48,904 bases of DNA from Desulfuromonadales bacterium (GTDB taxonomy: Bacteria; Desulfobacterota; Desulfuromonadia; Geobacterales; Pseudopelobacteraceae). A model generated the notes under the pieces. It was not told the origin of the DNA, ran no database searches, and worked only from the letters and a program-made list of their open reading frames with translations. Location of the stretch: contig JAENWA010000021.1 of NCBI GenBank assembly GCA_016650295.1, positions 1 through 48,904 of the forward strand. The letters run 5' to 3'. Position numbers and translations under genes: made by a program. Positions 1,714 to 48,904 of the stretch are shown one piece after another (the stretch's first letter is position 1; every line of letters begins with the position of its first letter).

Positions 1714-1786
1714 AACCCCTCCCGGCCTCCCCTTATCAGGGAGGAGAAAATACTCCCCCCTGACAAGGGGGGGATTGAGGGGGGTT
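1714..1786. repeat. G/C-rich palindromic repeat element between the permease genes
   Basis: The intergenic sequence starts AACCCCTCC and ends with its near-complement GAGGGGGGTT. Inside it are two facing arms, CCCCTTATCAGGGAGGAG and CTCCCCCCTGACAAGGGG, separated by AAAATA, so the RNA can fold into a strong stem. A related sequence (shared CTCCCG.CCTCCCC..T and AGGGRGGAG blocks) occurs inside uvrB at the right edge of this window. It looks like a dispersed REP/MITE-type repeat rather than a simple terminator, as no T-run follows. Confidence 0.7.
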
Positions 1787-1802
1787 GATTTTGAGGTTTA
1801 GC

Positions 1803-46702: not shown

Positions 46703-47989
46703 TCATTTTACGAGTTTCAACCGGCGTGCCAGCAATTGCAGGGTATGCAGCACCTCGACCTTCGAACCATGCTGTTTGAGACCATCGGAAAGCTGCATCA
46801 TGCAGCCCGGACAACCGGTGGCAACAGCCTGCGCCCCGGTAGCGATAATCGCCCGGCTCTTGGCCTCGTTTATCGTCATGGATGAACCGTAGTGATAGAC
46901 GTTAAAGGTACCACCCAGACCGCAGCAGCGATCAGCCCCTTCCATCTCGGCCAGCTCGACACCCGGGGTTCCTTGCAACAGTTCCCGCGGTTGTTTTGTC
47001 AGGCCGCGCGTGCGCAGGTGGCAAGGGTCGTGATAGGTGATGCGGATCGATTCTCCGGCCCCGGTTTCTTCCGGATTCAGTCCCAGCTTGTGCAGCAGTT
47101 GCGACGCATCCACCGTCTTGGCAGCCAGGGCCTCCAGACGGGCCTTCAGCTCCGGATTGCGCTTGCCGACCACCAGCGGATAGAGCCGGTGCAGCGCCCC
47201 GCCGCAGGTGGCACAAGCGCTCATGACGTAGTCGGCCTCGTAGCGCTCCATCTCCGCCAGGTTCTTCTCGGCCAATTCACGCACCGTGTTGATATCGCCG
47301 CCGGACATGCCCGGCAGACCGCAGCATTGCTGGCCCTTGGGGATGATCACCGTGCAGCCCAGGTGACGGAACAGGGCCAGAGCCGCTTCACCGACCTCGG
47401 TGTAGACGAAGTTGGTCATGCAGCCGACGAAAAAGACGATCCGTGGCTTGCCGGGCTCACCCGGAATCACCTCGGGATGCCGATCCATGAACGGTTTTTT
47501 GGCAATAACCGGGATGTGGCGGCTTCCACCCACAAAGGGCATCGGGAAGCGCAGCCGCAGGCCGGAGGTTTCGGGAACCTTCTTGAAGAACAGCGGCCCT
47601 AGCAATGATGCCGTCTTGGCGCCCATTTTCATAATCGAGCGGTTCTTGATCACCTGGCCGACTGCCGCATGGAAGGTGGTCAGACCCCGTTTTTTCGCCA
47701 GGGACTCACGGGCGGCAATCACGATTTCGTCGGTAGGGACATCATTGGGGCACTTCTCCACGCAGCTGCCGCACAGCAGGCATTTCGACATGGCCAGATA
47801 GGTCTGGTCATCCAGCTCGATATCGTCTTTCAGAATATGCTGCGCCAGGGCAATCTTGCCGCGGGCCACGGCCGGCTCGCGCCCAAAGGCGGTAAAGGCC
47901 GGACAGTTGGCGCGGCAGGCGCCGCACTTGACACATTTTTTCAATTGATCTTCAACCCGCTTGAGCGGGTCCATGGTAGTATCTGACAT
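46703..47989 (-). CDS. GlcF/LutA-like Fe-S oxidoreductase with two CCG domains
   Basis: A 428-residue protein. N-terminal ferredoxin part has CVKCGACRANCP and CLLCGSCVEKCP (two [4Fe-4S]); the C-terminal part has two CCG domains ('FVGCMTNFVYTE....GQQCCGLPG' and 'HDPCHL.....ADRCCGLGGTFN') that bind a further cluster. This is the architecture of glycolate/lactate oxidase Fe-S subunits. Start at ATG 47989 with AAGGGG upstream. The FAD subunit is not in the window, so substrate and partner are unknown. Confidence 0.88.
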   Translation of the reverse strand: MSDTTMDPLKRVEDQLKKCVKCGACRANCPAFTAFGREPAVARGKIALAQHILKDDIELDDQTYLAMSKCLLCGSCVEKCPNDVPTDEIVIAARESLAKKRGLTTFHAAVGQVIKNRSIMKMGAKTASLLGPLFFKKVPETSGLRLRFPMPFVGGSRHIPVIAKKPFMDRHPEVIPGEPGKPRIVFFVGCMTNFVYTEVGEAALALFRHLGCTVIIPKGQQCCGLPGMSGGDINTVRELAEKNLAEMERYEADYVMSACATCGGALHRLYPLVVGKRNPELKARLEALAAKTVDASQLLHKLGLNPEETGAGESIRITYHDPCHLRTRGLTKQPRELLQGTPGVELAEMEGADRCCGLGGTFNVYHYGSSMTINEAKSRAIIATGAQAVATGCPGCMMQLSDGLKQHGSKVEVLHTLQLLARRLKLVK

Positions 47990-48095
47990 CAAATCCCCTT
48001 CGTGGTTCAGAACATGCGGTTTTCAGTTCCGCTTGTAAAAGAGTAAACAAACAGCAGGTATTTCTCAATCTAAATCTGCTCCCCCGTTATCTGCC

Positions 48096-48904
48096 TCAGC
48101 GCAAGGCCAGCTCCATCTCTTCCAGTTTCCTGACCCGGTCGCGCAGCCGGGCGGCTGTCTCGAAATCCAGGGCCTTGGCCGCAGTCAGCATCTCCTTGCG
48201 CAGCTTTTTGACCAGCTTCGGAATCTCTTTGGGGGCGATATATTCCTCGGCAGATTCGGCAACCATTCCCGGCAGGCTGTAATAGTCCTTTTCCTCGATG
48301 GAATCCAGGATGGTGCGCATGCTCTTTTTGACCGTTTCGGGCGTTATACCGTGTTCCTCGTTATAGGCCAGCTGCCGTGTGCGGCGACGACCGGTTTCGT
48401 CGATGCAGGCCTGCATGGAGCGGGTCACCTGGTCGGCATACATCAGTACCCGGCCGTTGATATTGCGGGCGGCACGGCCGCAGGTCTGGATCAGGGAGCG
48501 GGCCGAGCGCAGGAAGCCCTCCTTGTCGGCATCCAGTATCACCACCAGCGAGACCTCCGGCAGATCCAGCCCTTCGCGCAGCAGGTTGATCCCCACCAGC
48601 ACGTCGAACTCTCCCATGCGCAGGTCCCGCAGGATCTGCATGCGCTCGATGGTAACGATGTCGGAGTGCAGGTATTTCACCCGTACCCCCAGTTCTCGGT
48701 AGTAATTGGTCAACTCCTCGGCCATGCGCTTGGTCAGGGTGGTCACCAGCACCCGCTCGCCCTTGGCCACGGTCAGGCGGACCTCGTGCAGCAGGTCGTC
48801 CACCTGGCCGACGGATGCACCCCCATCCCCCTCCCGACCTCCCCCTTGAAGGGGGAGGAGTCTATTTGGTGTCTTTATGATCTTAATTCCCTCCCCTTCA
48901 AGTA
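48096..48904 (-). CDS. uvrB: Excinuclease ABC subunit B, C-terminal part, with in-frame repeat insertion
   Basis: The 3' ~270 codons of uvrB, running off the right edge. Helicase motifs of domain 3 are intact: '[17 protein letters not shown]', '[19 protein letters not shown]', '[19 protein letters not shown]', and '[12 protein letters not shown]'. The last residues (~200-235 of the fragment) form the UVR domain that binds UvrC. Just before the conserved GQVDDLL the frame passes, without a stop, through a palindromic repeat coding for ~30 Gly/Pro/Arg-rich residues (48823-48904) not found in usual UvrB proteins. UvrB is the damage-verifying helicase of nucleotide excision repair. Confidence 0.93.
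48823..48904. repeat. G/C-rich palindromic repeat inside uvrB, cut by the window edge
   Basis: Plus-strand CCCATCCCCCTCCC, then CCTCCCCCTTGAAGGGGGAGGAG (a self-complementary core), and after an A/T-rich loop CCCTCCCCTTCAAG. Related to the repeat at 1714-1786. Read as minus-strand codons it stays open. Confidence 0.75.

Follow-up and report, generated by a model that had tools for sequence, protein, structure and literature searches.

An in-frame palindromic repeat in the UvrB linker of a Desulfuromonadales bacterium, at a site occupied by several kinds of repeat in its family

The uvrB locus at the end of the contig

The window analyzed here is a complete contig (C21) of 48,904 bp, one of the 123 contigs in a draft genome (G000). 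Its minus strand encodes the C-terminal part of UvrB at one end, and a palindromic repeat lies in frame directly ahead of the conserved GQVDDLL motif. A second repeat is found between two genes elsewhere in the window. The features are listed by position.

48096 to 48902, minus strand: C-terminal part of uvrB, an open frame of 268 codons that reaches the contig end, with GQVDDLL at the start of the last 237 codons
Within 48096 to 48902, minus strand: uvrB domains found by Pfam, namely C-terminal helicase (PF00271), UvrB (PF12344), and UVR motif (PF02151)
48789 to 48809, minus strand: conserved GQVDDLL directly after the insert, from the sequence and the open frame; start of a helix in the Oryzomonas japonica model
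48821 to 48904, minus strand: palindromic element in frame, broken by the contig end, with 83% identity to element positions 26–107
48838 to 48858, no strand assigned: inner hairpin CCTCCCCCTTCAAGGGGGAGG in the right arm of the element, matching its own opposite strand at 95%
48889 to 48902, minus strand: remnant of the other arm, ended by the contig end, 14 bp identical to element positions 26–39
1714 to 1790, plus strand: intergenic two-hairpin repeat between two genes, with a layout like the uvrB element and a sequence that is almost entirely different

The first-pass annotation described a uvrB frame that runs from the window edge through the palindrome into GQVDDLL without a stop, and this description was correct; the minus-strand frame is open from 48902 to the stop at 48096. 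The locus matches positions 426–657 of the UvrB model TIGR00631. The contig ends inside the palindromic repeat, and therefore the N-terminal half of this uvrB cannot be read at the locus. A search of the rest of the assembly with the UvrB model returned no convincing match to that half. The 12 other matches in the genome are weak, and the best of them (E 5.7e-17) lies in a 1216-aa frame that is presumably Mfd. The simplest reason for the lost half would be an assembly break at the repeat, with the short piece beyond it dropped.

The element itself was identified by comparison with a genome of another genus, G123. Window positions 48821–48902 correspond to positions 26–107 of a complete 108-bp element (L104:1560–1667), called element B below, and the right arm in the window contains 41 bp identical to it. 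The 19-bp core of CCTCCCCCTTCAAGGGGGAGG was searched for in the window allowing up to three mismatches, and the two matches are both strands of a single site; shuffled sequences gave a mean of 0.03 matches, and one shuffle in 100 gave two. An Rfam search of 47000–48904 gave a single match that is far below its gathering score.

The window's locus could be an assembly chimera in which uvrB was fused with a copy of the repeat, or the gene could be genuinely truncated in this strain. The end of C21 within the repeat and the failure to find the N-terminal half in the assembly would fit either case. In G123, however, the complete form of the same insert occupies the same place in a uvrB that is unbroken over 717 codons, and the window's own frame stays open across the repeat. 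Draft genomes also commonly have repeats close to contig ends, as in five G117 contigs that have a copy no more than 160 bp from the end. We regard a chimera or a broken gene as very unlikely.

The other repeat in the window, at 1714–1786, had been taken as a relative of the uvrB repeat. The resemblance holds for the architecture, which is two hairpins in both cases, and fails for the sequence. Only a 17-bp match is shared by 1714–1790 and the uvrB repeat (E 0.044), which rules out the intergenic repeat as a copy of the same family.

The UvrB linker in relatives

The order was searched, over 141 genomes, with a 150-aa query taken from the UvrB of a congener that has no long insert. Families f3 and f4 gave 59 matching genomes, all of which cover the query in 441 nt, three codons under the query length; two further genomes of these families had no match. 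The window's family (f1) gave two matches to the query in 23 of its 72 matching genomes, mostly on either side of the linker (among the matches listed), with the exception of G127, where one match spans the whole query. In the rest of the class, beyond the order, matches were obtained in 117 genomes; two of these (G144, G207) had two matches each, and the best match was weak or partial in three (G160, G240, G261).

Linkers read from the relatives place the inserts between VRPVTA and GQVDDLL. The linker length in f1 ranges from 16 to 75 aa among 66 parsed uvrB genes. The commonest state is a 22-aa linker (24/66), the ordinary 16-aa linker is found in 6/66, and linkers of at least 26 aa are found in 25/66. 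These 66 genes come from 76 genomes, of which four had no match, five (G093, G136, G005, G112, G127) were left out, and the window's own gene (G000) is cut; the linker of G127, read separately, is 30 aa. Long linkers are present in seven of the eight parsed f1 genera. The protein on either side has a nearly fixed length, with 400 aa before the linker in 60/60 measured sequences and 220–222 aa after it in 57/57. The f1 family takes in Oryzomonas, which NCBI places in Geobacteraceae, and the linker of G008 is identical to that of Oryzomonas japonica. Family f2 has linkers of 27–34 aa in all four fetched genomes (L041, L043, L044, L045). The L044 linker contains a strong palindrome (fold z −6.0).

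A sample from many phyla consisted of 80 best-match loci, 71 of which were parsed and nine were not. One constant linker spacing is shared by 68 of the 71, in a sample that is biased against inserts because the loci were best matches. The linkers of the other three are identical to those of f1 members G008, G009, and G016. The first-pass annotation had recognized that its reading would fail if relatives carried the same residues as ancestral sequence. The relatives carry a different insert or none.

The insert site lies just before residue 429 in one solved UvrB structure. The O. japonica UvrB was modeled by AlphaFold2 from 25 aligned sequences, and the model is good with a mean pLDDT of 82.6. 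The pLDDT of its insert falls below 50 at residues 435–447, between a strand at 425–429 and a helix at 450–463 that is the first helix of the C-terminal helicase domain. The O. japonica insert is thus predicted to be disordered. The predicted tryptic peptide across this linker is IEIRPATATPPQSPPK. The first-pass annotation had proposed that a repeat of this lineage can be translated as part of UvrB, in a loop between the helicase domains where extra residues are tolerated, and this proposal is supported. The same element is in frame in the complete uvrB of G123. Other kinds of repeat occupy the site in many relatives, and f3, f4, and the sample from other phyla are without an insert. The insert at the site is predicted to be disordered, in a prediction made for the O. 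japonica protein and not for the window's.

Palindromic inserts, dispersed copies, and other host genes

Grouped by eye, the inserts in the UvrB linker make up about eight kinds, with eroded inserts set apart from these. The kind NPPLLKGD...PPFEKGGSGGI is found in five genomes and is eroded in one of them. Other kinds are SPHPSPLPNGEG...LRERVAEGRVRG and PNPPPLGEG...LSPGGGELERG. Different kinds in genera g1, g4, and g7 have the left border AGRQIP or AGKQIP in common (GGAARGCAAATCCCC or similar). A second type of border consists of ACGGC followed directly by TACCCC or TCCCC.

The folding of 30 inserts (26 of f1 and four of f2) was compared with dinucleotide shuffles, using segments of the same length from the same genes as controls. 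The fold z was below −3 in 14/30 inserts versus 0/117 control segments, and the medians were −2.8 and +0.16, respectively. The 16 inserts that do not reach this value include some that are short or eroded, and the truncated insert in the window has a z of −0.5. Near-complete copies are 87–132 bp long and consist of two inverted arms of ~40 bp, each with its own hairpin, around a variable spacer. The arms are found in both relative orientations. These copies have terminal inverted repeats as in a MITE, with ends ACCCCATCCCC / GGGGATGGGGT, and the short palindromic arms, inverted pairs, and many dispersed copies expected of a REP or REPIN. REPs of the GTAG and CGTC super-families have such a tag at one end of each palindrome; by eye, several copies end in ATCTACCCC / GGGGTAGAT and others do not, and no clear tag sequence emerged. 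The open frames in 18 near-complete copies showed no general excess over dinucleotide shuffles, which gives no hint of selection for coding ability, and the idea that open frames in the element are selected was dropped.

Copies are dispersed through the family. Element B has matches in 41 of the 76 f1 genomes, 22 of these matches being in the window's genome, and a second kind, element A, has matches in 57/76. We examined 64 copies of element B, made up of the best match of 24 genomes and 40 more chosen among the matches listed, and because these 40 were chosen down the list the sample leans to intact copies. Of the 64, 25 (12/24 and 13/40) lie in frame in a gene whose protein has family support. 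This count includes the query's own locus (L259) and four loci with family support on one side only (L272, L277, L280, L323). It leaves out L294, L310, and L261, which have a spanning frame and no family support on the needed side, as well as antisense and overlapping frames. Most of the other copies examined in the window's genome lie outside any long conserved frame. For element A, 30 loci were scanned for spanning frames without a family check, and four of them are uvrB.

The first-pass annotation had asked for a search for the repeat inside other coding sequences, and in-frame copies were found in UvrA, PolA, PabB, and ThiL, among others. The host proteins of element B are UvrB, UvrA (two sites), PolA, ThiL, CobB, MsbA-like exporters, MmeI-type enzymes, and fatty-acid synthase-like proteins. 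Comparison by eye places copies from two genomes at the same site of UvrA (G002 and G091), PolA (G098 and G123), ThiL (G112 and G123), and an exporter (G098 and G112). Palindrome-like peptides occur in one variable loop of UvrA at L268, L292, L340, L344, L351, and L358, and in a loop of the PolA exonuclease domain at L266, L315, L360, L362, L371, and L375. Among the parsed loci, other f1 members have unrelated sequences in these UvrA and PolA variable loops. Element A lies in frame at apparently the same place of one protein in two genera (L407, L416); we take this protein to be HypF-like. The MmeI-type enzyme at L307 contains at least two in-frame palindromes, and a DUF559 domain separates its parts.

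The PabB of the window's genome, which is part of a PabB-PabC fusion, contains 52 extra residues in frame that include two palindromes (G000:C63:44038–44655; L213:1539–2156). The insert is absent from all 11 relatives with both halves among the matches listed; in the other genomes the second half was below the cut-off or outside the listed matches. PabB as a second recurrent site is not supported by this comparison. The absence of the insert from the 11 readable relatives indicates that new insertion does seem to happen.

The inserts could be adaptive. They would then tune nucleotide-excision repair, for example through mutator states, and UvrB, UvrA, and PolA would all be affected for this reason. 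The repeat-like peptides that several family members have in the UvrA variable loop and in the PolA exonuclease loop agree with this idea, and passages of an earlier study propose such an effect for REPs in uvrA, uvrB, polA, and recBCD (PMC3733652). It is opposed by the many unrelated hosts, which include ThiL, CobB, PabB, MsbA-like exporters, fatty-acid synthase-like proteins, and MmeI-type enzymes. The insert sequences also vary freely, and one is predicted to be disordered. We consider an adaptive role very improbable. A broader speculation, which we rate as improbable, is that in this family palindromic mobile elements use the variable loops of the nucleotide-excision-repair proteins UvrB, UvrA, and PolA as permanent landing sites and are exchanged over evolutionary time, with repair genes being preferred hosts and not merely tolerant ones. 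If true, this would be a convergence with Rickettsia and other REP-bearing bacteria, and the preference could arise from targeting during repair or from a benefit to the cell or the element.

Probable turnover at the linker and relation to known repeats

A tree of 75 UvrB sequences with the linker removed requires at least 20 changes of insert presence and at least 23 changes of kind, in a quick tree with 31 of its 72 inner branches weak and with repeat kinds set by eye. Subtracting the element leaves 19.3–22.7 aa in the 11 of 27 long linkers that have clear element ends, a value near the common 22 aa. Two genomes, G094 and G121, keep only GGGGGGGATTTCCGT in the linker, which is the right end of element A. 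These remnants are apparent deletion scars of element A, and their sequence suggests that inserts can be deleted from the UvrB linker.

The same variety could descend from a single ancestral palindrome in the UvrB linker. The first repeat would have served as a landing platform, and gene conversion or recombination with genomic copies would have produced the different kinds. The left border common to different kinds in g1, g4, and g7 is consistent with this history, as are the apparent scars of element A and the predominance in the family of the 22-aa linker, which is possibly a remnant. However, arm sequence, length, and borders are not the same from kind to kind, and a second border type exists. 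Lineages with the 16-aa linker persist within the family, and the PabB insert points to new insertion. We hold descent from one palindrome to be possible and rather doubtful. For the recurrence in UvrB we rank new insertions first, exchange with copies at an occupied site second, and benefit third.

The explanation that we favor, with considerable confidence, is that a REPIN- or MITE-like palindromic repeat was inserted in frame into the uvrB linker, and that this linker has been invaded recurrently in the family. Repeats of several kinds are dispersed in the genomes of the family and would be moved by a trans-acting enzyme, probably a transposase. Insertions into coding DNA would persist if the element has a length that preserves the reading frame and lands in a disordered loop. 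In many members of the family the UvrB linker is already longer than the ordinary 16 residues, at about 22. It would be the one UvrB site that accepts elements, and elements there would have come and gone many times, by gain, erosion, deletion, and replacement. The window's repeat, if translated, would add ~36 residues to the linker that joins the C-terminal helicase domain of UvrB to the N-terminal part, and the additions are probably neutral for UvrB function.

Work on Rickettsia palindromic elements is reportedly that of Ogata, Claverie, and colleagues. These elements are ~105–150 bp long, dispersed, and of several families, and a large share lies in frame in conserved genes, according to two reviews (PMC2229807, PMC10969869). 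The first-pass annotation had likened the window's repeat to them. The likeness is one of description, and it is apt as a way of working; the window's repeat is likewise a palindromic repeat in frame within a protein-coding gene. It differs in its hosts, which are relatives of Oryzomonas, in its GC-rich double hairpins, and in one gene site being struck repeatedly by different kinds. Passages of Di Nocera et al. 2013 (PMC3733652) describe REPs within uvrA, uvrB, polA, recB, and other genes of various bacteria, different REPs at about the same recB site in two Xanthomonas species, and a uvrB of R. conorii interrupted at two sites. The same passages consider that flexible linkers or loops may be neutral sites and that the repeats may have a mutator effect. 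As here, those repeats are short inverted palindromes, often paired, many of them inside repair genes; they belong to the GTAG and CGTC super-families, and Geobacter and Pelobacter are not mentioned in the paper's main text. The main text of a 2025 REP survey (PMC12306157) does not mention Geobacter, coding sequence, or uvrB. The best-ranked titles of the open-licence literature included no report of repeats in Geobacterales uvrB, and one may exist elsewhere.

In-frame palindromic repeats are thus already known from Rickettsia and some other bacteria. What appears to be new is the recurrent occupation of one UvrB site by several kinds across a bacterial family. In tens of genomes from one family, a single site in a conserved repair protein can be seen filled, empty, replaced, or apparently scarred. 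Having these states within one family makes several open questions directly testable, namely the way the repeats move, a possible preference for repair genes, the rate at which inserts disappear, and a possible role of mobile DNA as a source of protein linkers. A caution for annotation is that such repeats can be break points of draft contigs and may split gene calls.

In REPINs, which are associated with RAYT transposases, a variable spacer separates two palindromic arms in inverted orientation. The repeats described here resemble them in their arms and spacer and in the occurrence of both relative orientations, and differ in that no associated RAYT was found in the window's genome. A comparison of flanks and lengths across insert sites established no target-site duplication. 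The Y1-transposase model (PF01797) has nine matches in the window's genome. The short flanks of these nine loci contain none of five arm motifs, and no RAYT gene flanked by the element was found among them. The best Y1-transposase match (G000:C123:8456–8785) is interrupted by several stop codons.
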